A DNA stretch of 64,000 nucleotides. Source: Chalara sp. BL73 (Eukaryota > Ascomycota > Leotiomycetes > Helotiales). The stretch's first letter is position 1, and each line of letters starts with the position of its first letter. Position numbers and translations under genes: made by a program. The stretch covers positions 496,001-560,000 of the forward strand of contig CAKJVC010000123.1 in the NCBI GenBank assembly GCA_918026815.1, given 5' to 3'. The notes under the pieces are model-generated. The model searched no databases. It saw only the letters and a list, made by a program, of their open reading frames with translations, and was not told the DNA's origin. Positions 35,382 to 60,639 of this stretch are shown piece after piece.

Positions 35382-36165
35382 ATGTGTAAACTCAGATGCT
35401 CCTGTTTTGGCTTGTTATTGATGGAAACTATTGCGTAGACTGCATCAAATAATTCAAATGTGGATTTCGCCTGCAAGTAAAGGTTCTATGGCCAAGGTAT
35501 GAACACTACCGATTGGATATTATTGAAACGTCATCTGCAAAGTCTTATTTTATATATGAAATAATCAGGCGCAAGGCAGTTATTAGCTGCGCTCTTTGTT
35601 CCCCATGATCAAAATCATCTAGAACTAGTCAGGGGTTGTGGTAAGGATGGAACTGTCAGTTATGTGTGCTGCAAAGAACTTTAAAAAAACGTGACTAAAA
35701 GAGAATTGTCAATAACAGAATTCGTTCTAGCAGCCTATTTATATATATGTACTTGACTGACATAGTTGTTTTCATGAATGAGTCAATTAGCCACATTGAA
35801 AAAGATTGACAAAGAGTTCTTTGTTCTATGAGAATGCCAACAACGAGTGATAAACACATAAATGGGTAGAGCTCGAGGCTCAACAGGTATTAGTGCCATT
35901 GTCTTCTTTTCATGAATATAAAGACAAGAGGTGATTGTTTGTTTGGAATTTGAGCCCTGGTAAGTAACTGGCTAAAGTGAGCCAATCTTCTTCCATAGAA
36001 CAAGAAATTATGAGTATAAGATCGATGTTCAAGGGGCATATATCCAAGCCACCAGAGCGAGATTCATAATCATCATTTAAATTTGTGGGTATTTTCTGTC
36101 AGCCAAACACTAAAGTCAAACTGTTTCTTTCAAATTTAATCAAAACAGCCTCCAAATCAAGAGTC
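35382..36165. other. AT-rich intergenic region
   Basis: About 780 bases, visibly AT-rich, with no ORF of note. The frame of the next gene is open upstream of its ATG, but only with a GTG and no methionine. Confidence 0.45.
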
Positions 36166-38484
36166 ATGCTTTCCCTAAAGCACAAGGCAATGGCAGTCGC
36201 TTCTAAAGAGAGACATGACAAGATTGAGAACCGTTGCGCAGCAGTCATGGAAATGATTCGAACCCTACAAGAAGGGCAACTAAAAGAACCAGGAGATTTG
36301 GGTAAGACCATCCCACGCTTTTCAACCGAGACCCAAGAGCTTATCAACAGCACTTTACACAATCTAGAGTACGAAATCGTGCTGGCAGAGGATGACCTAG
36401 AATCAGCAGAGGCCGAGCTGATGGCAACAAAGGCAGAACTCCGGAAGGTCATTGCTGCTTGCGAGATGGATAGCGATGAACCGAACCACCTTGAGATAGT
36501 TCAACAAATGATAGAGCGTATCGTCAATGCCACAAAACTAGCAAAGGGGCCGAAAGCCACAGCCGTCACTAACTCAGACTCAATGTCCAATCTCGAAAAA
36601 CGTATATCATGGCTCGAAACTGATGATGACTTAATGTCAGGCCTCGAACGCCGCCTGGCAGACATGGAATTCAACCACAAAATATCTGTAAAGCAAAAAG
36701 CGAAGATTGAAATTCTCCAACAGGACATTCAAGAAGCTCAAAACAGAGCTGAAGAGGCTTTGGGGAAAGTTGAGGAAGCTGAAGCCAGGGTAAAAGAGGC
36801 TGACCGGATTGCCCGAGACGCGGTGAAAGAGGCGCAGAGCGCTGAGGCTAAAATAAGACAAGCTCAAGATAAAACTCAAGCTGCTAAACAACAGGCCGAA
36901 AATGCTGCTCAAGACGCACTGAGAAGTGTTCAAGATGCTGAAGCAAGGATGAGCAAGGCTCAGCAAGACGCTAGTGCCTCAAAACGGCAGACTGAACAAG
37001 CAATAAAAGAGGCAGAGAATGCTAGGAAACAAGCCGCTTTTGCAAAGTTGGCTGAAACAGCGCGAACTGGCGAGCTCAACGCGCTGCAAACAACGTATGA
37101 TGAGACGGTAGCTCTTGGGAAGAAGCAAAGACTCGAGGATGAAGAAAGACTTGCCAAAATGCAACAGGACCTTTTCTATGCGCAGGACAATGCTCGCAAA
37201 AACTTCGATGAAATCCAAGACCTCAAAGGGAACCTGCGAGTGATGTGCCGGATCCGACCACAGCTTAAGGCAGCACACACTGAGTTAGAAAATTTCAAAC
37301 TGGATGTAGGCCCAGACAGTGGACATCTGCAGCTACTATCTATATCCAAGCGTCAATCGCCGGAGGTGGATTCTTTCCAGATGGAACGAATCTTCGATAA
37401 GAACGAGTCTAACGACCAGATCTTCAGTGAAGTAAGTCAGCTAGTCAGATCGGCGATCAACGGCAGAAACGTCTGCATCTTCGCGTACGGGCAAACTGGG
37501 TCAGGGAAGACCCATACAATGACATATCCTTGGAATGAAGACAACAAAATCGCTGCTTCTGGAGCCGTCGATGAAGGCATCATACCAAGGACTGTGCGAA
37601 TGATCTCCAATGCCATCTCGGAAACTAAAGATAGCTGGACATTTACAGTTAAAGGTAGGTTCATCGAGATATACATGGATCATGTCTATGATCTTCTCAG
37701 AAATGAAACGGGTCCCATTCAAGATATCCCGGTAAAGTATGCTACAGAGCGGCGTAACGGTAAGGACGAGAACATCTACAAGGCCGAGAGCAACGAGGTA
37801 GAGTTGACAACGCTTTGTGGTGACTTCCACGAAGCCAAAGTACGGGAAATGCTTCTGCAAGCTGCCAAGTCTCGACATACCCGGGCTACTGGTAAAAACG
37901 CACAAAGCTCGCGATCCCACTCGATTTTGTCCCTGAAAATCGAAGGAGAACGAGTCGATATGAGCAGCGGCAAGATAACTGAGACCTGTGGTACTCTGAA
38001 TCTGATAGATCTTGCTGGCTCCGAAAAGCCGACCGATAGCTCTCTTGATAAGGAGAGCCAGGCCGAAGGCACTAAAATCAACAAATCATTGCTTGTGCTA
38101 CGAAATGTGCTTGAGGCCATGGCAAACCCAAAAGCCGCTCAAGTTCCATTCCGCGAATCGACGCTAACGAAGTTACTCCAGCCTTCACTCGGTGAAGGAT
38201 GCAGAACCCTGATGTTCGTAATGGTAAGTCCACTGACCAAAGACAGAGAAGAGACTCGCAATACTTTGAGCTTCGCAAAGGTAGCTCAAAATGCTAAACT
38301 CAGGACCCTAAGATTGGAACCAGAGACCCCAGTAAGACCAATAGGAAAGCCAGCTATACCACCCAGACAGGCAAGACAACCAGGTCAAGCCTCCAGATCT
38401 CTATATCGTCCCTTGCAACCACGAAGCGTTACCCCGACTCCAGCTCCAAAGAAGAAAGAAGAGGGCAAGAACGGTAAGCAATGA
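36166..38484 (+). CDS. Kinesin-14 type C-terminal motor protein
   Basis: A single exon of 772 residues, starting at ATG 36166 (MLSLKHKAMAVASKERHDK). Residues up to about 350 are helical, with a long Ala/Glu/Lys coiled coil (from about 190). The kinesin-14 neck (DLKGNLRVMCRIRP) then leads into a C-terminal motor. P-loop GQTGSGKTHTM (about residue 443), switch I NAQSSRSHSI and switch II DLAGSEK are all present. Kinesin-14s move toward microtubule minus ends and act in the spindle or cytoplasm. The neck reads VMCRIRP where VFCRVRP is usual. The tail after the motor is basic and Pro-rich. Absence of introns is unusual in this window. It may be a second, divergent paralogue beside the standard KlpA-type kinesin. 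Confidence 0.92.
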   Translation: MLSLKHKAMAVASKERHDKIENRCAAVMEMIRTLQEGQLKEPGDLGKTIPRFSTETQELINSTLHNLEYEIVLAEDDLESAEAELMATKAELRKVIAACEMDSDEPNHLEIVQQMIERIVNATKLAKGPKATAVTNSDSMSNLEKRISWLETDDDLMSGLERRLADMEFNHKISVKQKAKIEILQQDIQEAQNRAEEALGKVEEAEARVKEADRIARDAVKEAQSAEAKIRQAQDKTQAAKQQAENAAQDALRSVQDAEARMSKAQQDASASKRQTEQAIKEAENARKQAAFAKLAETARTGELNALQTTYDETVALGKKQRLEDEERLAKMQQDLFYAQDNARKNFDEIQDLKGNLRVMCRIRPQLKAAHTELENFKLDVGPDSGHLQLLSISKRQSPEVDSFQMERIFDKNESNDQIFSEVSQLVRSAINGRNVCIFAYGQTGSGKTHTMTYPWNEDNKIAASGAVDEGIIPRTVRMISNAISETKDSWTFTVKGRFIEIYMDHVYDLLRNETGPIQDIPVKYATERRNGKDENIYKAESNEVELTTLCGDFHEAKVREMLLQAAKSRHTRATGKNAQSSRSHSILSLKIEGERVDMSSGKITETCGTLNLIDLAGSEKPTDSSLDKESQAEGTKINKSLLVLRNVLEAMANPKAAQVPFRESTLTKLLQPSLGEGCRTLMFVMVSPLTKDREETRNTLSFAKVAQNAKLRTLRLEPETPVRPIGKPAIPPRQARQPGQASRSLYRPLQPRSVTPTPAPKKKEEGKNGKQ

Positions 38485-44494: not shown

Positions 44495-45676
44495 TTACAA
44501 TGCTAAACCTTGTTGTCGCCAGATCAGGGATCTGTGTGTCTTAGGCATAGTAGGAACACCTTTCGCTGTAGCGCTTGCTGCCTTCTGGGGGGCTCCCTTA
44601 GCAGCCGGAGATAGCTTGGCGGCGCCTTTCTTAGTTGTCCCTGATGTAGTACTTTTCACGAGACCAGAAGGAAAGGCAGGCTGAGGTGTCTTAAGAGCAA
44701 CGTCGCTAGACTCTTGGGGCTGGGAGGGCTTAAGAGCGGAAGTGCCGGGATTTATAGGCGGAGCTTCTGCCTTGGGAATTGGAGGGAGAACTTTTGACCC
44801 TTTAGAGCAAGTGGACACAGCATTATGATCAGTTTTGGCGGTGGCGGTGGCGGTGTTGGCTTTAGTAGGCGTGCCAAGCCTAGGACTAGAGCTGTCTTTG
44901 GCAGGGTTGGGTTTTGATGCTTTGTTAGCCGTTGTGGGCTTTTTAGTGGATTTAATAACGGCTGGTGGTGTTTGACGCGAACACGCCCGAGTGGGGGGTT
45001 CCCATTGAACTTGACCAGATGCAGTTGTGTAGTAATAAATATCTTCCTCATCGCTGAAATGCATACTCCATCCCTCTGGTAAGCGTGGCTGTTGTGCTGG
45101 TGCTGGCAGAAATACGCCCGAGTATTTGACTCGTCTGTCATAAGTAGAGCCGTAATAGTACGATTTATTATCAGGATCCCAATAAATATTGAAGCCTGTC
45201 ACGTTTCGAGGTGGGGTTGGGCGTCTTCCCTGGAGGTCTGGGAAGAGATCTCGTGCCTGTCGAGGGGTGACATTTTCATTTCTGCAGGCATTGCAAGCCG
45301 CGCTGAAACCACGACATATGCGCTGGGCATCTGGGGACGTGTCCCATGTGATAATACTGCCCTGATTGAGTCCGTTCGGGTTTCGCCCGTAATTATTGCT
45401 TCTACTGGCAGTCAAAATGTTGTCTTCCGCATGAGAACCTGACTGAATAGATGGACCAGAGCCACTAGAGGTGGCGATAAAAATGTTATTCAGTCCATCT
45501 TGCCAGACAGCAACTGCTACTGGAGCAAGCGATCCAATCAATCTGTTGGCGACCATCTGTTTCATCTCTTGTGCAGCTCGATAGACCAAGTCGCCTTGCT
45601 CTGTCGGGCTTAACCTAATACCGTGGCTAGGGTAATAACCAATCAAAAAACCTTGTCCATTACGGTCGATTTCCAT
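44495..45676 (-). CDS. WW-domain protein with deaminase-like N-terminal domain
   Basis: A single minus-strand exon of 393 residues, starting at ATG 45676. The N-terminal 140 residues are predicted as helix (VYRAAQEMKQMVANRL), strands (PVAVAVW, NNIFIATSSG), then GSHAEDNIL, a strand (GSIITWDTSP) and CNAC. The His82-Ala-Glu84 and Cys128-x2-Cys131 layout is that of zinc-dependent cytidine-deaminase-fold enzymes. This is an inference from motif order. A canonical WW domain lies at about 199-230 (LPEGWSMHFSD... to W225). A possible related tryptophan/tyrosine-rich unit (FNIYWDPDNKSYYYGS) precedes it. WW domains bind Pro-rich ligands. The last 150 residues are Ala/Lys/Pro/Thr-rich and disordered. 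The function is unknown. Confidence 0.62.
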   Translation of the reverse strand: MEIDRNGQGFLIGYYPSHGIRLSPTEQGDLVYRAAQEMKQMVANRLIGSLAPVAVAVWQDGLNNIFIATSSGSGPSIQSGSHAEDNILTASRSNNYGRNPNGLNQGSIITWDTSPDAQRICRGFSAACNACRNENVTPRQARDLFPDLQGRRPTPPRNVTGFNIYWDPDNKSYYYGSTYDRRVKYSGVFLPAPAQQPRLPEGWSMHFSDEEDIYYYTTASGQVQWEPPTRACSRQTPPAVIKSTKKPTTANKASKPNPAKDSSSPRLGTPTKANTATATAKTDHNAVSTCSKGSKVLPPIPKAEAPPINPGTSALKPSQPQESSDVALKTPQPAFPSGLVKSTTSGTTKKGAAKLSPAAKGAPQKAASATAKGVPTMPKTHRSLIWRQQGLAL

Positions 45677-46878
45677 CAACCATCCATCATACCTCCCTTA
45701 GAGGGGGACACAACAACCAAGCTTCGCCAGGACCAATATAACAGTACATGTTGTAGAAATCCAGGAGAGAATCATATTTATAGTTGCCGATAATATGCGC
45801 TAGTGTCTACAGATAAACAGCTGAAAGAAGCAGTCGTGGGAGGAGTTTGGATATTGAAAGTTCCTTTGAGATATTGGAAAATGACGCGTGGTAACCAGGA
45901 GAGAGTGCTTTGAAACAGGTAAATTTATAGCAAGCAAAGTAAAGATAATATAGATGAATCGCAGGTTACAAATGGCAAAGCATGTGGAAAATAAAGCAAC
46001 AAAATTGCTAGCCTCCTTGACTTTATAGAAAGACATATTGAAATCTCTATAAGCTTATAACCACCTTCGCAACCTCTGTCTACCTTAACATTTCAATACT
46101 CTAAATCCCTTTGAAGGCTGGTGTCTGCCGTAGGCTTTGGGAGGAGCAGTTCCATTTGGAAATTCGAGGCTGGAAAGCCATTGGACCTTGTTATGGGGAG
46201 TTAGTCGACCTTGAATCCAAAATTTATCTGGTACAACTGACCCTTTTGTTGGTTGAAAGCTTTTCTCCACCTCTCTAATTGGCTATTGTTCCAGGCGTGG
46301 GCTTTTCGCAGGTCCTACAGGGTCATGTTGGTGTTTTAGCTATAGCGTTAATCTTATCTTGGCGGCATCCTTTTGCATGTCCAATGTTCAAAGACTAGGA
46401 TCTCATCCCACCCAGCCTTGAAGGACATTTAAAGTATGCTGGTTTTCAAAAATAGAAACCTGGAATATCGTATCGACCTTGCAGAGGTAAAGCCACTTAC
46501 GGATTTTTTGATATCTGTCCCTTAGACGGTAAATTTGTTTGCAAGTATTAGAAGCTGATATGGTGAGTAAACTTTTCTAAGTATGCGTAACATTAAACTA
46601 GATTGATATATCCTTTGGAGTTGTATATATACACTCTAAAGAGGAATGTGACAAAGGTGGCTGGTGCTAACTCGTGATATACATAACCGCCCCAGCCTAC
46701 TGTCCCGACCAAGGCGCCAAGGCAAGGTTATAGGCTCCCAACAGGATACCATCTATTCCTCAAACCAACGGCAGAGTGGAGTTTGACAATTTTTATTATG
46801 AAAAGGAAAGGAAGATGCTGTATTTGGTCAGACAGTCAAGTTTACTTTCAAATTTGATCTGATAAGATTGTACTGGAC
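45677..46878. other. Gene-free stretch, 1.2 kb
   Basis: Promoter side of the WW protein gene and 3' side of the 2EXR gene. No convincing ORF. Confidence 0.45.
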
Positions 46879-48060
46879 CTATGCCGCTTGGCTGTTATAT
46901 AGGCTATCCTTAGGAATATCCTTCCATGCCTCATAATCACGTCCCCAGTAGGATTGGGCCTCTTCCTCTTCCTCTTCCTCTTTTTTCTTAGAGATCTCAT
47001 CGCCTTTGACGTCAACTTGCCTCGCTTTCTCATACCAATAACTATCCCTTGCGGTAATAAGCTTGTTGGCCTCAGTCCTGGGCATGACCGCCACAACCAT
47101 AACCTTGGGAATAGTTCCAATTGAGGCACTTGGGCGGACAGGAGGTCGATAATCGATGGGGGGTAAACTGGGAGGCCGGGGTTGCGGAGCTGTAGAAGCC
47201 AATTCTTTCAAACTCATAAACCATTCCTCCCACTCCTTTTCAAAATATCTGAAATATCCACTCCAATCACCCCTATTGGCCTTCGCATATTGATGAAGCC
47301 GCCAGTAATGCACCAGCGACAAGAGCCTCCCATGTGGCCACACCCCTACCTTTGCATCAATGCCATTACACTCTACGTAGTCCCACAGATCACCTCTTCT
47401 GTCTCTTACTTTATTCCCAACGTGCTTCTCCACGATCAGAAGCTCGCTCAAACTTCCAAATCTCAAAACCAGTTCATACAATTCTAAGGATCGCTCATGA
47501 TCCGAAGAACTTATGAACATAGGGCCTGGGATCGGGTCGCGAACAGTGGTTGTATCCATCACAGCGATGCGTTGAATGCGCCTTATATCCTTGGGCAATA
47601 TTGTCGGAAAAGAAGCACCAGCCTTTGTCGCGTTCCACAAGGTCTCTTCTCGAGGCGAAGCGAGCTCAAATTCCTTTCTAGCATATAACTCATCCCGAAG
47701 CATAGGAGCTTTTATTAAATACAAAGTATCTATCTGAAAGTTAAACCAGGTAAAGGGTTCTGCCTCCTCGGTCCCAAAAGCGAGTTCGTACCCGAGATCC
47801 AACATCATGTGGCGGGACTCCCGACATGTATGTAGCGGTGCTGGGATAGGGGACCTGCTGAAAAGATAATTATGGTTCGGGTGATCTTTTTTGAGTACAG
47901 AGATTGGTGTGAGGATAGGTTCATGATTATAATTGTGGGTGAAAGTAAAGAAGTGTGAGTGGGTAAGCAGGACGAGACGGGGTTGGACAGCGAGTGTCCA
48001 AATGCCATAGCGGAGTTCGAGGGGAAGACGGGAAAAGTGGTGGAATGTGCTTGGAGCCAT
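46879..48060 (-). CDS. 2EXR domain protein
   Basis: A single minus-strand exon of 393 residues. The opening FHHFSRLPLELRYGIWTLAV is the 2EXR signature (PF20150). The family's second conserved part follows as PLHTCRESRHMMLDLGYELAF. 2EXR proteins are strongly expanded in Pezizomycotina and have no established biochemical role. The C-terminal part is charged, with a KKKEEEEEEEAQ tract (an imperfect GAA/GAG repeat near 46960-46990) and a Pro-rich linker (PQPRPPSLPPIDYRPP). No signal peptide or membrane segment. It lies beside transposon-derived sequence, as such families often do. Confidence 0.83.
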   Translation of the reverse strand: MAPSTFHHFSRLPLELRYGIWTLAVQPRLVLLTHSHFFTFTHNYNHEPILTPISVLKKDHPNHNYLFSRSPIPAPLHTCRESRHMMLDLGYELAFGTEEAEPFTWFNFQIDTLYLIKAPMLRDELYARKEFELASPREETLWNATKAGASFPTILPKDIRRIQRIAVMDTTTVRDPIPGPMFISSSDHERSLELYELVLRFGSLSELLIVEKHVGNKVRDRRGDLWDYVECNGIDAKVGVWPHGRLLSLVHYWRLHQYAKANRGDWSGYFRYFEKEWEEWFMSLKELASTAPQPRPPSLPPIDYRPPVRPSASIGTIPKVMVVAVMPRTEANKLITARDSYWYEKARQVDVKGDEISKKKEEEEEEEAQSYWGRDYEAWKDIPKDSLYNSQAA

Positions 48061-48603
48061 TTTTGGGATATGAATGAAAAATGAACTTGAAAAGTTAAAG
48101 TAGAAAAGAGATGCTGGCTTTAAAGAGGGTCAAGTGGCGGGTTTTTGACAGTGGCCATGTCAGAAGTGGGTGGGAATAGCATCATTTTGATAGTCATTAT
48201 CATGCCTTCATAACCCGTATCCTGTGATCCATAATTGGTAGATAACACTATCGGCTCGTCCCCTGTTGCTCGTTTTGTTAGATTCAATTAAATACTAGCA
48301 ATAGTTTGGATAATTCTAGTTGTCAGGTAAACGGTAGGCAACACAGTGCCCACTAGTACAGTAATCCACAATTGAGTTTGATTGAGTGGACTACTTTTTA
48401 TCCAAATGGTCGATGTTTATTGTGAATAATATAGCCGTCTGTCATCTTTCCACAAAATAATTAATTATTATTTCAATTATACTTCAAATTGCTCCATATT
48501 TTGGATTTAGCATTTTAGAGTAATTATGCATTATTATACCGGACACGATTTACTTAAAGCTTTTAAAAATATCCCAAAAATTTAAAAAAAATTAAAGTCG
48601 GCT
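48061..48603. other. AT-rich region before a solo LTR
   Basis: About 540 bases; 48440-48600 is strongly AT-rich. Part must be the 2EXR promoter. No ORF. Confidence 0.45.
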
Positions 48604-52046: not shown

Positions 52047-53743
52047 TCAGTTGAAATTAAGGATGACAGCCTCTGAATCTAATACGCTGACTTTTATGCT
52101 TCCATCCTCAACCTTGGTGATCTCCTTATTAGTGATATTGTGTAGTCTCACAGGATTTCCGTTGTCTAGCTCCCAATTATAACTGAACCCATCCCACGAA
52201 ATTCCTGAGATCGCATCGCTACCATTTGCATACAATCTCTGAATACGAACTGCGTCGCCACAGTCTGCCGGAACTTTGAGAGTGTATTCTCGCGCTAGTC
52301 TATCAACTGTATTTCGGACCGAACTAGTACCATTAACTGTATAATTGTACTGCTTCATGTTGATAATCACAACCCTTGCTAGCTTATTCCCGGAATACGC
52401 AGCATAGGCGGCTTCTGTATCCTGCTCCAACTGGATATTAGCAATTCTCGTCTTCTGTTTCGTCAAGTCACCCATCATTGCAGCAACCACAATATTACCA
52501 TAGTATGGTGGCTTAGTTCCGACAGTTGTGGTGTTCGTGTGGATCGGCTGCCAGCTCTGATATCTGTAGTTTGTTCCCATGTGCATATGAACGCGACGAA
52601 TTCCGACAGATGCACAATATAGGTTGAAGTCAATACCCCAAAGAGCAGCGCCAAAAGTGTTCGAGAGCCCAGGTTTTCCTTGGTTGTAAAGACTATTCGT
52701 CTCGCCAAGAATGAAGGGAATCCCTGTATATGAAAGGTTCTGCTGAAGCTGGGTTATAGCATGGACAGATTGAACAGTAACAGTGTGATTCATGAGAGTA
52801 CCTTGAAGAGTAACTCCAGGTCGGTTGGCACCATTAATGTAACTTTTTGATATTAGTGGCACTATTGACAGTTGGAAGGATCTATAATTAACTCACTTAT
52901 GATGCGAATTGAGTTTGATGACCTCATCCACATCAAGTCCGGATTGCCAAGCCTTGACTGGATTTAGCTGGTTAGTGAGACTTGCAAAAGATGGCGCAAG
53001 GTACCCATATGTCGAGTTCGATGTAAGTTCGGGACAGTATTTTCCAAGCTGGAGTTTTATCGCTCTTGTTCCATTAAGCCATTGGCTGACGTAAGTGGCT
53101 TCATTCCAAGAAGGCGGTCGGGCAGCTGCTCTTGCAAAAAGGTCCGGTTCGTTTCCATATTCCCACCACAGCAGCTTTCCGCTTCCGAGCGCTTTACATG
53201 CAAGGGGAACAGTATCGAGCAAAGTTTGCCATCCCACAGAATTATTGCCACCAAGGCCCATATTAAATCCATGTACAAACTTTGTATCTGGCCATGTATT
53301 ATAGGACTCGAAATACGACGGCCCAATGGAGATTGTAGTTGGATAATCAGGTGATCTGGATGGGTCGACAATGCCGATCAAGGAAGTTTCCAGACTTGGA
53401 TCATAGAGGTACAAGTCCTGGGTATTGCCGCCTACCCGGATGTATGGTTTTGTCCCTGTGAGATTGCCAAGGTTGTTCAATAGATTGTTCGAAAAAATAT
53501 TAGGAGAAGAGCGGTTTCCTAGACATTGTCACCCATGGTCTAGCAGAGGTAAGGAAGAAGTATGCAACCTGCAAAATCTGGAAACGAAGAAAACTCAATC
53601 GAATAGCTGACGAAAGCTTCCGGGATGGGATCACTGGCAACTGCGGGAGGGGAGCTGGACAAAAGCATAGGGTAACCTCGAGTCAACCTCACCAACCCAG
53701 CAATAACGCCGGCCATAGCTACCGTTCCCTCCGCAAATCTCAT
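52047..53743 (-). CDS. GH79 beta-glucuronidase-like enzyme
   Basis: Three minus-strand exons, 53743-53569, 53518-52897 and 52842-52047, give 530 residues. A hydrophobic N-terminus (AMAGVIAGLVRL) suggests secretion. The first join reads SFPDFAGNRSSPNIFSNNLL, a family hallmark, leading to the strand PYIRVGGNTQD. The acid/base Glu lies in WEYGNEPDLF (about residue 182) and the nucleophile in ILGETNSLYNQG (about residue 315). The C-terminal beta-sandwich (GH79 C domain) is complete. Fungal GH79 enzymes remove glucuronate or 4-O-methylglucuronate from arabinogalactan proteins. The last intron acceptor (ATCAAAAAG) is weak, but the join HHNYINGANRPG fits. Confidence 0.86.
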
Positions 53744-55888
53744 GATGAATCTCCTTTATATGACTTGTCCTAGGGCTTAAAATCAGAGGAGGAGAATTAA
53801 TGAACCTTGGATCCAACGCATGATGAGAAAGATCGTATTAATATATGTAAGAGAGGAGTAATAGCGATTAGAGTTTCATTGCAAAACTTGAGCAATCCGA
53901 CCTTCCATATCTGAGATTGTGCAAGCTGATTAAACCCATTACGGCAAAATCCAGCGAAATTTCGATGCTATATTGGTTAGCCCCTCCTGTTTCTGTATGA
54001 CCTTTGAGGAATGCAGAGACAGATTGTACACGCATATACATCAATGACAGGTTGGGGACAATATGGATTGGGCGGGGTAACCAATATCCCTGTACATATC
54101 CCACTCTTGTATAATCCTGCATTTTAACACCCTAAACGTAATTTAACATACTTTAGCTCAATACTATTTTCTTTTTTATAAAAGTTAAATACAGTATAGT
54201 ATTAGTTATCTTACACTTGCAAATCAATTTGTTTTGCCTCTATTAAAGCTATTGTACATCCTTTTTCTACCATATATTTCCTCCAATTTTTGTATATGAA
54301 TAGTACCTAACCGTGGGTGCGCTGTTATCTGGGCTAAATATTAAGCAGCATGGGAACTCTACTTAGTGTGGTATAAATCCAAAACTTGTAAGTGAAATGC
54401 TTTGAATTAGAAAATAAACAGACTATATACCCTTTATATCTAGCATTATAAATCTAAAATGCTGTTTATAAAGCTCCATGCTTTTTTGTGAGTATTTGTA
54501 CATTAATGCGGAAAGAAAACAGTAGAAGTTATAAGATATGCGTTTGTATATTGAGATCGAAGTAGCTCAATTGTCCAAAAGATTATTCTAAAATGCGAGC
54601 TGTGGGTTGGCCTGAAATAATTGCAGTATCCTTGCAAATTCCTTGTCGGAGCGCTTTTTTAATACGTTTTGGACCCTTGATGGTAGTCATTTGCAAATAG
54701 CCTGGCGTAATTTGTAACAACACAAGGAGTCACGGGCTAGAATAGAGGCATATGGGAGTGCGTACAATAGGCTGAATATGGCTCCTTATAGGTCTGCTAC
54801 GGAGGATACAAAACATGAGGAACAACTGTAGAAAGTAGGAGCAGGCTTTTATATAGGCGACTCCGACTTTCCTCCGTCTCGACTCTGTAACCTCTCATGC
54901 CCTGCTTGTCAACCCCCTAATCCTGACCTTTGCTTATGCTTCCGCTGTTACATAATTGATACTAGGATAACCAAAACTGTTGAACATTTTAGAACACGGA
55001 CCCGGCAATTGTTATACGGAAAATCACCTATAAATGGAAAACTAAGAAATGCGTGCTTTGCTAGTCTCGCAATTATATGTTTTTACATGGTAGCGAAGTA
55101 TACCGAGGTGTTTACTAATAATAACTCGTTTAATTAGTCAATTATTGCGTGAATCGGCCCGTACCATTTAGCCGGTTAATGTGACGTTCAAGGTAGCATA
55201 ACATTATTTGTTGTAAAAGCTGCTTGGTGGACAAACAACCGGACAATATTTTGGTGTAACAGTAACCGTTCGTGACTATATATGTGACCGGCTAATAGTG
55301 TGGTAGAGTTAAGAGTCAGTACGGTCCTAACCTCCTAATTATTCGGACTACGGTAGTTGAAAAAAGGTATTAAATAAATTATCCAATTTACAGATCAATG
55401 TTATTAAAAAATAAGCTAATAAACTAGCCTTTTTATTTTGCGGTTACCACGTGATAAATATTGGATATGATTCCTATTCAGGACTAGTGTTCCGCATGCT
55501 TGGCTTTACAGTTACATTTCCCTACAGTAACAAAATCAACAATAACTCAACTAATAAAATATAGAATAGATTATCTGCTAGCTTAATTGAAATCCTAAAA
55601 TCGCGGCTTTTAATTTCATTAATATTTTAAATGATTGTATTAGTAGTTACTAAGGTAGTCAAAAATAGTGAAAATCGCGTATGTAAATTTTGGGTGATTG
55701 GGTAAAAATCACGATGGCACGTGATCCAAGGCTTTTTCGCCACTAGAGTACGGCGACTCAGATCGATTTGAAATTATTTTACACTATATATTGTAGCAAA
55801 ATTGTAGAGATATATTCTGTAGAGATTATAATAAAACAAATAGTACTTTATTATTTTAAGCAAATTACGTATTTACTGCAACCTAAAG
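53744..55888. other. AT-rich, gene-free region of 2.1 kb
   Basis: Mostly AT-rich DNA with many short T and A runs, particularly 54120-54300 and 55340-55860. No ORF of note. It probably contains the GH79 promoter near its left end and degraded repeats elsewhere. Confidence 0.5.
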
Positions 55889-55981
55889 GTGGCTGTGCAT
55901 CGCAGCAGCAAACCTACGAAACAAAAACTGTTTACACCACCTAAGGCACTGAAAAACATAGCAAAGTTGTGCCAACTCATC

Positions 55982-57796
55982 ATGGTTAACAGGCTTGATC
56001 CAGGCCAAATTCGAGTTCTTTATATCCAGCCTGGGAATGCAGAGCACATTGTTTGCGACACTGAAATCACTACGTTGGCCTTATCCATTCACAAGTACGA
56101 TGCCCTCTCCTATGCCTGGGGCGGTCAAGATCTCACCCATACAATCACCGTCTCCAATAAGCCTTATGCAGTAACCTCAAACCTATATGGAGCATTGAAA
56201 CATTTACGACCCAAGGATGGCAAGAAACGAGCCGTCTGGATTGATGCCATCTGCATTAACCAGCAAGATCACGATGAACAGACTCAGCAAGTGAACATGA
56301 TGGCACATATTTATCGGAACGCACGGCTGGTGGTCATGTGGTTAGGTGAAGAAGTTAAGATGGACAACATATCAATTGATGGCGTGGCTTTCTCTCTTCT
56401 TGAGCAGCTGCGAAGAGTTTTCGAAGATAATGGACATGTTGAATTTGATTTTCAGCGAAAAGGACCGGAAGGGATTGCGTGCCCCGGCTATGGATTACCA
56501 AATTCCAATGCAAGGGAGTGGATTGCACTCGCACGACTCTTTTCAAAGCCGTATTTTGAAAGGATCTGGATTATTCAGGAGGTGGTGATGGCGACTAGAG
56601 CTATCATCGCATGTGGGGATCTGAGAGCTGAGTGGGAGGTCGTGAGAAATGTTGCAAGGAGTTTGCAAAGGTGTGGCTCGCTGGGAAGTTTAGAATATGT
56701 CGGAGCCGCACCTGGTGTCATTTCAGTGAACGCTATGGCCGATTTGAAACATGGAAAGGGTGTAGATCTCATTACCTTACTTGTGAAAACAAGAACGTAT
56801 CAGGCGACGAAGGAAGTAGATAAGGCCTTTGCCCTTATGAACTTATCCTCAAATCCACATAATGCAGGTATTGTAGTCGATTACTCACTGGAAGGGAAGC
56901 CACAAAAGGTCTGGGAGAAGCTTGCTCTGCATAGCTTGACTGTGCACCAGAGTCTGCTGTGTCTCTCCAACGCAGGAATTCGTTCATCGCCTCAGCAATC
57001 TTGGATTCCAAACTGGAGCGACAATGACGATGGTCGTACATGCCTTGCGCTTCATGGCAAAGACCATTTTAGAGCCTCAGGAGATTTGCAGGCAATAATC
57101 AGTGTCTCCGAGAACAGCAAAGTCCTCACAGTAGAAGGTTATATTGTAGACAGCGTTGCCATTGTTGCACCTTCTATCCCAAATTTCGTACCAAAAGCTA
57201 TGAGAACCGGACCTCTTGAGATTTGGTTGACCATTGAAGAACTTGAAGAACGAAAATCATTGATGGTTGCTGCTCTTCAAAGCTCTCTAGAAACCGCCAA
57301 ATCTGCTTTTCGATACAACGAGGGCTTCCCTCGAGACAGAGAGTTGGCGCGAACGTTATGCTGTGACATACTCATGACAGGAGAGAAGGCCAACATTGAT
57401 GCTGGGTACGAAATTCTTCAATGGATGATCAAAGTCGCAAAATTATTTGGATTGGAACCTTTACCCAAAGATCTAGAGAAAGTAGACGATATCCAACGTC
57501 AAGTGGAAACTATAATGCCCTCTGGTGTTGATACAGAAGGGTTTCTACACTCTTGGCTCTCGTTTGGGACAGGCAGGAATGTGTGCGCTACTGTAAAGGG
57601 TGATCTTGGTCGTGTGGCCTTTGGCGCCCGGCCTGGTGACTCGATTTGTATACTCAAAGGCGGTAAAGTGCCATATTTGTTAAGAAAAGATGGCAGTGGT
57701 TATAAGCTTGTTGGAGAATGCTTTGTAAATGGGATTATGTATAGTGAAGCATTAAAATGCAAAAACTTAAATGAGCAAACTTTTAAAATTAATTAA
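55982..57796 (+). CDS. HET domain protein
   Basis: A single exon of 604 residues from ATG 55982 (MVNRLDPGQIRVL). An upstream in-frame extension to 55889 lacks an ATG. The HET domain (PF06985) has its three blocks: YDALSYAWGGQDLTHTITVS, RAVWIDAICINQQDHDEQTQQV and MMAHIYRNARLVVMWLGE. Farther on are typical ARLFSKPYFERIWIIQEVVM and DKAFALMNLSS segments and the C-terminal conserved module. HET proteins trigger allorecognition cell death when unlike fungal cells fuse; the partner specificity here is unknown. The stop lies only 112 bases before a solo-LTR-like element, and the flanks are AT-rich. Confidence 0.9.
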   Translation: MVNRLDPGQIRVLYIQPGNAEHIVCDTEITTLALSIHKYDALSYAWGGQDLTHTITVSNKPYAVTSNLYGALKHLRPKDGKKRAVWIDAICINQQDHDEQTQQVNMMAHIYRNARLVVMWLGEEVKMDNISIDGVAFSLLEQLRRVFEDNGHVEFDFQRKGPEGIACPGYGLPNSNAREWIALARLFSKPYFERIWIIQEVVMATRAIIACGDLRAEWEVVRNVARSLQRCGSLGSLEYVGAAPGVISVNAMADLKHGKGVDLITLLVKTRTYQATKEVDKAFALMNLSSNPHNAGIVVDYSLEGKPQKVWEKLALHSLTVHQSLLCLSNAGIRSSPQQSWIPNWSDNDDGRTCLALHGKDHFRASGDLQAIISVSENSKVLTVEGYIVDSVAIVAPSIPNFVPKAMRTGPLEIWLTIEELEERKSLMVAALQSSLETAKSAFRYNEGFPRDRELARTLCCDILMTGEKANIDAGYEILQWMIKVAKLFGLEPLPKDLEKVDDIQRQVETIMPSGVDTEGFLHSWLSFGTGRNVCATVKGDLGRVAFGARPGDSICILKGGKVPYLLRKDGSGYKLVGECFVNGIMYSEALKCKNLNEQTFKIN

Positions 57797-58721: not shown

Positions 58722-60639
58722 CTAATTCAATCTAAATGATAGATAGGCTGCTGCTGCTGCGGAGAAGCATCCAATTCGCAACATCCAAGCAAGCGCTACA
58801 ATTTCTCCCAGTTCAAAATAGCCAAAGCTCCAGAACACTACACTACCCACAATTGCAGCAACAATTTGTGGCATAGCAATTGCAATGTTATGGACTCCCA
58901 TGATTGTTGCAGCCTTTAAACTGATATCATAACCACCAAGCTCTGAAGATGACCGCTGACTCTCTATTCCACCTAACTCTAGCTCCTGACTCAGTAATCT
59001 GGTCCTTGAGCAGTCTTCTATAAATGAACATGACTCAGACGGACTAATAATGTCTAACCCCTTGCTCATTTCCTCATGGGCTCTTGCAATCTCGGCTCCA
59101 ATAATAGCAAAGGGTGCCCACTGTGTCAGAGCCCAGGAAGTGCCAAGAGCCGCCGTAAAAATAACAGCACATATAAAACCGTTGGTCAGTGATGTACCAA
59201 GTAACGAAGCAGTGGCCACTATATGGGAGATTGTCCAAGCTCGTGAGAGACTAAACCAATGTGCCCTCTGGCAGATACTGAATCTTTCCGTTTGTCGAAC
59301 TCGTATCTGAAATTGATCAGATCTCTCCTTAGTAGTATGGGATTCCAATGCTTGGTAAAGTCCAACATCGTCCGTCTCCAAATTGGCGAGTGTACCTTCT
59401 GAGACGACATATGGAAGTCCCAAACTCGTTAGAAGGGCAACAATTGCAAAGAGCAGCATTGCCAGGGTTCCGTTTCGAGTAGCTTGGTCGTGCAAAAAAG
59501 TGCTTGTCTGGAAATTTTGACTTTCAATTCGAGTAGAAACTGCTTGATATTCAACTGTGACTGTTAGCGTGTTGTGGATTTTAAAATGGTATCTTTCGGG
59601 AAATTGTACATAGTTTACTCAGGTATCTGCAATACATTATTAGACTTCCCAGCTTTTCGCGACGGAGGTTATAATTAACATACGTTGATATGAAAAATAG
59701 AAATGGAAACCAGGCTAGCCATGAGAAGAACTGTACTACGCAGACAGCCTTAATCCTTTCAGGTAGCATGGAAACTGTTTTCAAAATATCTCGATAGCAA
59801 TGACCGATTTCCATCTTTGGCTCTGCTCCTAGAAACTGGCTTTCCTGGATTAAGGTGCTAGTTATCGCGACAGTGACACCCAAGCAGATCGAAGCAACCA
59901 GGCAGAAACCCTTGAATTCAATGTGTGTCACCCAGTTTAACCCTTTGGGTATCTCTAGAAGCCCGCAACCGTACCCGACGACACTTCCGACAAACACTAT
60001 TGAGCTGGTGATGGAACTTGCCTGAACTTGTTGTTCGGCTGGACAAGAATCAACAATCAAGGCTCGAATCCCGGCTTGAATAGGTTGGATTGCGATATTC
60101 AGTCCCCATACCCAGAAAACAGCCACGGCTCTCTTTAATATATCTATCGCAGCTGACTCTCTTGTAATACCCGCGAGACCGCAGCTCAAGTTGACTAACT
60201 CATTGCTCCAAGCAAGCAAACTGATACAGAAAATGGTGGCCGCCGTGCCATACACTATGAAAGGCTTTCGTCGACCCCATCTGTGTGTAGAACAGTCGCT
60301 TCTATATCCAATATATGGTTGCAAGACTGATCCGCAAATTGGCCCAGCCAGCCATACGAGAGACACCAGCGACGGATGGAGACCCAGTGAGAGCAAATAT
60401 GGCTATATTAGGCACATTAGTAGCACCTCTCAAGTTGTGATTGCAAGAACTCACTGATCCTTGTGACATGACAGTAGCCCAAACAACTTGCAATCTATGA
60501 GTTGTCAGCATGTTTATCACTAATTGGGACATATTCATGTCACTTGCCCTCCAAGACCTATTGCCAAACAGAACAGGTACCACCTACTGACCTTTCCGAC
60601 TATTGGGCCCTGTAGTTCGTTGCCATCTTCGTAGAGCAT
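58722..60639 (-). CDS. SUT-type MFS sucrose/alpha-glucoside:proton symporter
   Basis: Proposed exons on the minus strand are 60639-60548, 60494-60455, 60402-59684, 59626-59610 and 59554-58722, giving 566 residues with all junctions in frame. The N-terminus reads WYLFCLAIGLGGLQVVWATV, then MSQGSPYLLSLGLHPSLVSL and WLAGPICGSVLQPYIGYRSD. This is the conserved SUT/GPH opening, followed by RWGRRKPFIVYG. Late helices ALTQWAPFAIIGAEIARAHEE and IMGVHNIAIAMPQIVAAIVG also match. About twelve membrane segments are present. Plant SUTs and fission yeast Sut1 take up sucrose or maltose with protons. The first intron starts GCAAGT (GC-AG). The 17-nt exon is tentative. Confidence 0.82.

Follow-up and report, generated by a model that had tools for sequence, protein, structure and literature searches.

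Deaminases are built on a five-stranded β-sheet; helices 2 and 3 begin with the zinc ligands, and the CxxC motif lies at a helix start. Among fungal proteins, comparison with the gene described here is invited by the OTT_1508-like deaminases (OLD of fungi, PF14441), in which an HAE motif is followed by CxxC. In Neurospora, for which two OLD genes are described, A-to-I editing by OLD-ZAO has lately been tied to antiviral defence (PMC12754623). Bacterial polymorphic toxin systems offer a second comparison in their deaminase toxins: some of these have been acquired by fungi, according to the authors who describe them, and one clade combines HAE with a C-terminal β-hairpin (PMC3482391). The participation of fungal deaminases in conflict is an established idea, as presented in these two sources (PMC3482391, PMC12754623).

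The window analysed is a 64-kb stretch, bases 496001 to 560000 of contig C112, from a host assembly of 58.7 Mb in 199 contigs. The gene of interest is a complete open frame (table 1), single-copy in the genome and not a repeat, which stays open for 7 codons upstream of its ATG and so leaves approximately 400 codons free of stops. The length of the frame suggests that it is translated; synonymous codon usage in this genome is biased too slightly to tell coding frames apart. The gene model's 5′ end is a prediction, and an upstream intron may exist. A mini upstream frame of four codons plus stop, with two ATGs (window 45676–45690, minus strand), ends in TGATG and overlaps the start codon of the gene, an arrangement possibly reflecting reinitiation or a mis-set start, and a TATA-like sequence can be seen by eye about 100 bases upstream. 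On balance, we favour the view that the product is a lineage-restricted fungal WW adaptor, with an N-terminal effector domain whose HAE and CxxC motifs may bind zinc.

Table 1. Features of the WW-domain gene and of its neighbours (positions in the window).
Feature	Position	Strand	Basis or remark
Complete open frame, 393 aa	44495..45676	minus	ATG 45676, stop 44495–44497
N-terminal domain, residues 1–150 (boundary by eye), deaminase-like motifs	45227..45676	minus	sequence
HAE motif, residues 82–84	45425..45433	minus	candidate zinc ligand His82, candidate catalytic Glu84
CxxC motif, residues 128–131	45284..45295	minus	candidate zinc ligands, 46 residues after His82
Predicted strands, residues 160–188	45113..45199	minus	low-confidence model: strands 161–167, 172–179, 182–187
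WW domain, residues 199–228	44993..45082	minus	Pfam PF00397
Low-complexity A/P/K/T/S-rich tail, residues 235–393	44498..44974	minus	composition
Kinesin	36070–38481		Pfam match
2EXR protein	46882–48129		Pfam match
GH79 C-terminal domain	52050–52892		Pfam match
HET protein	55844–57793		Pfam match
Transporter	59584–60402		Pfam match

The preliminary description had recognized a canonical WW domain, and the profile searches bear this out: PF00397 matches the whole protein with an E-value of 5.4e-7 and 30 bits (cut-off 26.9), and the domain also exceeded the cut-off in a whole-genome PF00397 scan (31.6 bits). Both Trp residues can be read in the sequence, as can the three consecutive aromatic residues and the Pro at the end, so that its LPEGW...YYY...QWEPP domain is canonical for PF00397; matches to WW-domain sequences of the PDB are weak, the best being 2ho2_A (E-value 0.0045). 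What sets this protein apart from other WW proteins of the genome is the HxE...CxxC pattern, absent from the frames of all 19 other WW loci fetched and hence confined to this gene among 20 loci (of 21 genome matches; one frame is common to three of the 20). Two pairs of these loci, L035/L036 (contigs C91/C166) and L022/L023 (C11/C179), carry near-identical WW-containing stretches on different contigs, which represent either recent duplications or duplicated assembly. Pfam counted a second WW stretch in the protein at a limit of E-value 10, which was not located, and residues 150–197 alone gave no WW match at E-values up to 1. The strands predicted for residues 160–188 could, if the low-confidence model is taken at face value, form either a β-hairpin that closes off the N-terminal domain or a WW-like repeat that has degenerated. 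The tail is 15% A, 14% P, 13% K, 13% T and 11% S, with 24 K+R against 5 D+E. As an adaptor, the protein would dock on a proline-rich partner through its WW domain, while the basic, presumably disordered tail could add charge-based binding to nucleic acid or to an acidic partner; the N-terminal alpha/beta domain of about 150 residues would act as the effector, and any zinc ion held by HAE and CxxC might serve structurally or catalytically.

The N-terminal motifs admit another reading, which we consider somewhat unlikely: the domain would be a zinc-dependent deaminase that has diverged very far, its substrate would be nucleic acid or a nucleotide, and the WW domain would bring the enzyme to a proline-rich partner. 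Judging from the motifs, H82, C128 and C131 would bind zinc and E84 would shuttle the proton. HAE and CxxC do occur in the right order ahead of the WW domain, as had been claimed, and H82, E84, C128 and C131 follow the [HC]xE then (P)CxxC order of the deaminase superfamily, although the first Cys has no preceding Pro, which counts against the assignment; the cysteines ahead of the WW domain are residues 121, 128 and 131. The rarity of the pair in shuffled sequences is in favour of a deaminase. With CxxC placed 15–70 residues after HAE or [HC]xE, the strict pattern arose in 6 of 100 000 shuffles of residues 1–165 and the looser [HC]xE + CxxC in 83 of 100 000; for shuffles of the whole protein, the corresponding counts were 11 and 155 per 100 000. 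Among 190 distinct frames of at least 110 aa from the window and the fetched loci (L001–L003 and L032 set aside), the looser pattern was found in 10: this gene, eight OTT_1508 deaminases, which had been fetched for being deaminases, and one frame that is zinc-finger-like by eye and lacks HAE. The eight also carry the strict pattern, which is found in none of the 181 frames remaining once they and this gene are removed. On sequence grounds the HAE/CxxC pair is unusual, yet four residues do not make a fold.

Profile searches argue against a deaminase. No deaminase model from Pfam, NCBIfam or PADLOC matched the whole protein at E-values up to 10, and none was matched by residues 1–165 searched against Pfam and PHROGs or by two smaller pieces searched against Pfam, with the caveat that HMMER filters hide most weak matches in searches of this kind. 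Residues 1–165, and the two pieces of them, gave no Pfam match of any sort at E-values up to 10. The weak hits that did surface were put down to chance: CI-B14_5a (Pfam, E-value 0.2), DUF530 (E-value 0.13), a PHROGs family of unknown function (E-value 0.3) and PDB spike proteins (best E-value 0.045, with a single spike chain at 0.062 for residues 1–165).

Comparison with the deaminases of the same genome gave a similar outcome. A genome-wide search with OTT_1508 (PF14441) yielded 11 matches over the cut-off and 13 at E-values up to 10; the present locus is not among the 13, and the protein itself has no PF14441 match. The 11 compare with the two OLD genes described for Neurospora (PMC12754623) and comprise loci L004–L011 and three more; of the 11, two lie on contig C133 and two on C14, where one of the pair has an internal stop. 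Within the 3.2-kb locus of one OTT_1508 frame (L009), another frame on the minus strand encodes 437 aa in which the Cys and His residues form a zinc-finger-like pattern (MYND-like by eye). Membership of OTT_1508 was considered since 'RICRGFSAACNAC' and a TPR...LFP stretch resembled the OLD frames by eye, and was rejected with a profile score of only −0.6 bits. Against a profile of eight OLD frames, 1415 of 5000 shuffles that kept HAE and CxxC scored at least as well as the protein, as did 264 of 5000 free shuffles. Likewise, hhalign gave the protein 1.2 against OTT_1508, within the range of 30 shuffles (0.4–6.8), whereas in the control each of the eight OTT_1508 members was recognized by the other seven with a probability of 98.4–99.9%. 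The His–Cys spacing also differs, at 28–34 in the eight fetched OTT_1508 frames and 46 here. The protein is therefore no closer to OTT_1508 than motif-keeping shuffles are, and this, with the spacing, weighs against a diverged deaminase.

The dCMP_cyt_deam_1 family has eight matches over the cut-off in the genome, none of them at this locus. In one of its frames, L041, His and Cys are 67 residues apart, more than the 46 seen here. By eye, the PVAVAV segment 30 residues before His82 resembles several dCMP_cyt_deam_1 strand-one segments, a point in favour of a deaminase. A Tad2/dCMP-like origin was nevertheless set aside, as profiles built from frames of the genome itself lend it no support, both tests being weak. 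The first, a gappy alignment of four of the eight fetched frames (L042, L043, L044 and L046, without a [HC]xE...PCxxC string, were omitted), was scored at least as well as by the protein in 670 of 5000 motif-keeping and 316 of 5000 free shuffles. The second covered the N-terminal half, from strand 1 to HAE, in six frames (L040 and L046 omitted); 12 252 of 20 000 shuffles equalled or exceeded the protein, and two of the six genuine deaminases (L044 and L045) failed the leave-one-out control too, so this test cannot exclude the dCMP_cyt_deam_1 family.

The protein was modelled in two AlphaFold runs without homologues, each giving a mean pLDDT of 35, far below usable confidence; AlphaFold on single sequences often fails for folded proteins as well. 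The predicted secondary structure, at this low confidence, comprised helix 24–45, strands 53–59 and 65–71 and helix 115–132/133, with nothing around HAE; the strands of a cytidine-deaminase fold named in the preliminary description are accordingly no more than putative. A helix, two strands, HAE and a helix bearing CxxC would be the order expected of a deaminase. However, both models put CxxC at the end of its helix, the opposite of the deaminase arrangement. A Foldseek search with the second model returned 252 matches at E-values up to 10 and none at 0.001 or below, with no deaminase among the best 50 of the 252, an outcome that is meaningless for a model of pLDDT 35.

Bacterial polymorphic-toxin deaminases share with this protein the HAE signature and, possibly, a β-hairpin after the CxxC helix: residues 161–187 could be the counterpart of the hairpin in the HAE toxin clade, which would favour a deaminase (PMC3482391). 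Were the domain a deaminase, the nearest described kind would be this clade rather than OLD (PMC3482391). YwqJ had no match in the genome, while its control matched in Bacillus subtilis; XOO_2897 had none either, and neither did its control. A Pfam scan of 19 other frames of the window detected no toxin-delivery or immunity domain, and a combination of WW and deaminase domains was not seen in the titles and abstract openings listed by searches of an open-licence literature library.

No homologue emerged from the searches made. Against 5.8 billion proteins, the full protein gave 6589 candidates, none at an E-value of 1 or below, and residues 1–188 gave 54, none at 10 or below. No relative was confirmed among 26 pattern matches in prokaryote genome contigs, nor in plasmids and viral contigs, the collections covered besides the protein database and this genome. 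The neighbouring 2EXR protein, which has the same length of 393 aa, served as a control and found eight relatives in that protein database, two of them at 66% identity (76% of the query covered) and 73% (55%), and the sole named one, from Phialocephala subalpina, at 28% identity. This named relative, together with the HET and 2EXR genes of the window, points to a filamentous ascomycete as host. The database therefore contains sequences from relatives that are fairly close, and its yielding no homologue here suggests that the gene is restricted or fast-evolving, though one control gene is no proof. Within the genome, a weak match to residues 52–121 (contig C79, L003, E-value 1.26) was rejected as a paralogue, its 354-aa frame lacking HAE. 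HAEDN is encoded at nine places (three for the pattern read backwards); eight of these were fetched, including this gene, and the other seven hold no similar frame (the place on contig C173 was left out).

The gene had been assigned to a variable region beside HET and 2EXR genes, in keeping with a conflict role. The neighbours are confirmed, with the 2EXR gene about 1.2 kb and the HET gene about 10 kb away. Contig C112 ends in TTAGGG repeats, partly degenerate (L048, position 9227 onward), some 81 kb from the gene. This places the gene in a subtelomere, so that a variable region is plausible; for the conflict role, location is the sole argument, and a subtelomeric position fits conflict genes but also any lineage-specific gene. 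The final 9.3 kb of the contig has a GC content of 34%, and within the window GC falls to 36% at 54001–56000, just ahead of the HET gene.

The WW adaptor is thus the reading best served by these data: the WW domain exceeds its cut-off, the N-terminal part has no significant domain match, no homologue was found in the databases searched, and the gene is single-copy and subtelomeric. What it leaves unexplained is the rare coincidence of HAE and CxxC in the shuffles and frames counted above. Should that coincidence instead mark a diverged deaminase, the protein might found a fungal deaminase family not yet described, of the HAE/C-terminal-hairpin kind whose other described examples are bacterial conflict toxins (PMC3482391), with an added WW domain and basic tail: a partner-aimed modifier of RNA or DNA in the variable subtelomere of one lineage. 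We hold this to be unlikely. The lack of relatives in the searches made, the subtelomeric position and the low model confidence throughout might suggest a frame that is specific to its lineage and either young or decaying, with a captured WW domain, no stable N-terminal fold and a coincidental HAE/CxxC pair. This is improbable, given 400 open codons, an intact WW domain, helix- and strand-like stretches visible by eye in the N-terminal part and the frequency with which single-sequence AlphaFold fails on folded proteins too.

As a WW adaptor whose N-terminal domain is not a deaminase, the gene would be one among many lineage-specific subtelomeric genes of fungi and of modest interest. If the N-terminal domain does prove to be a deaminase, fungi would possess a partner-targeted base-modifying enzyme beside the OLD editors of Neurospora (PMC12754623), and the gene would provide a clue to the re-use of conflict enzymes.
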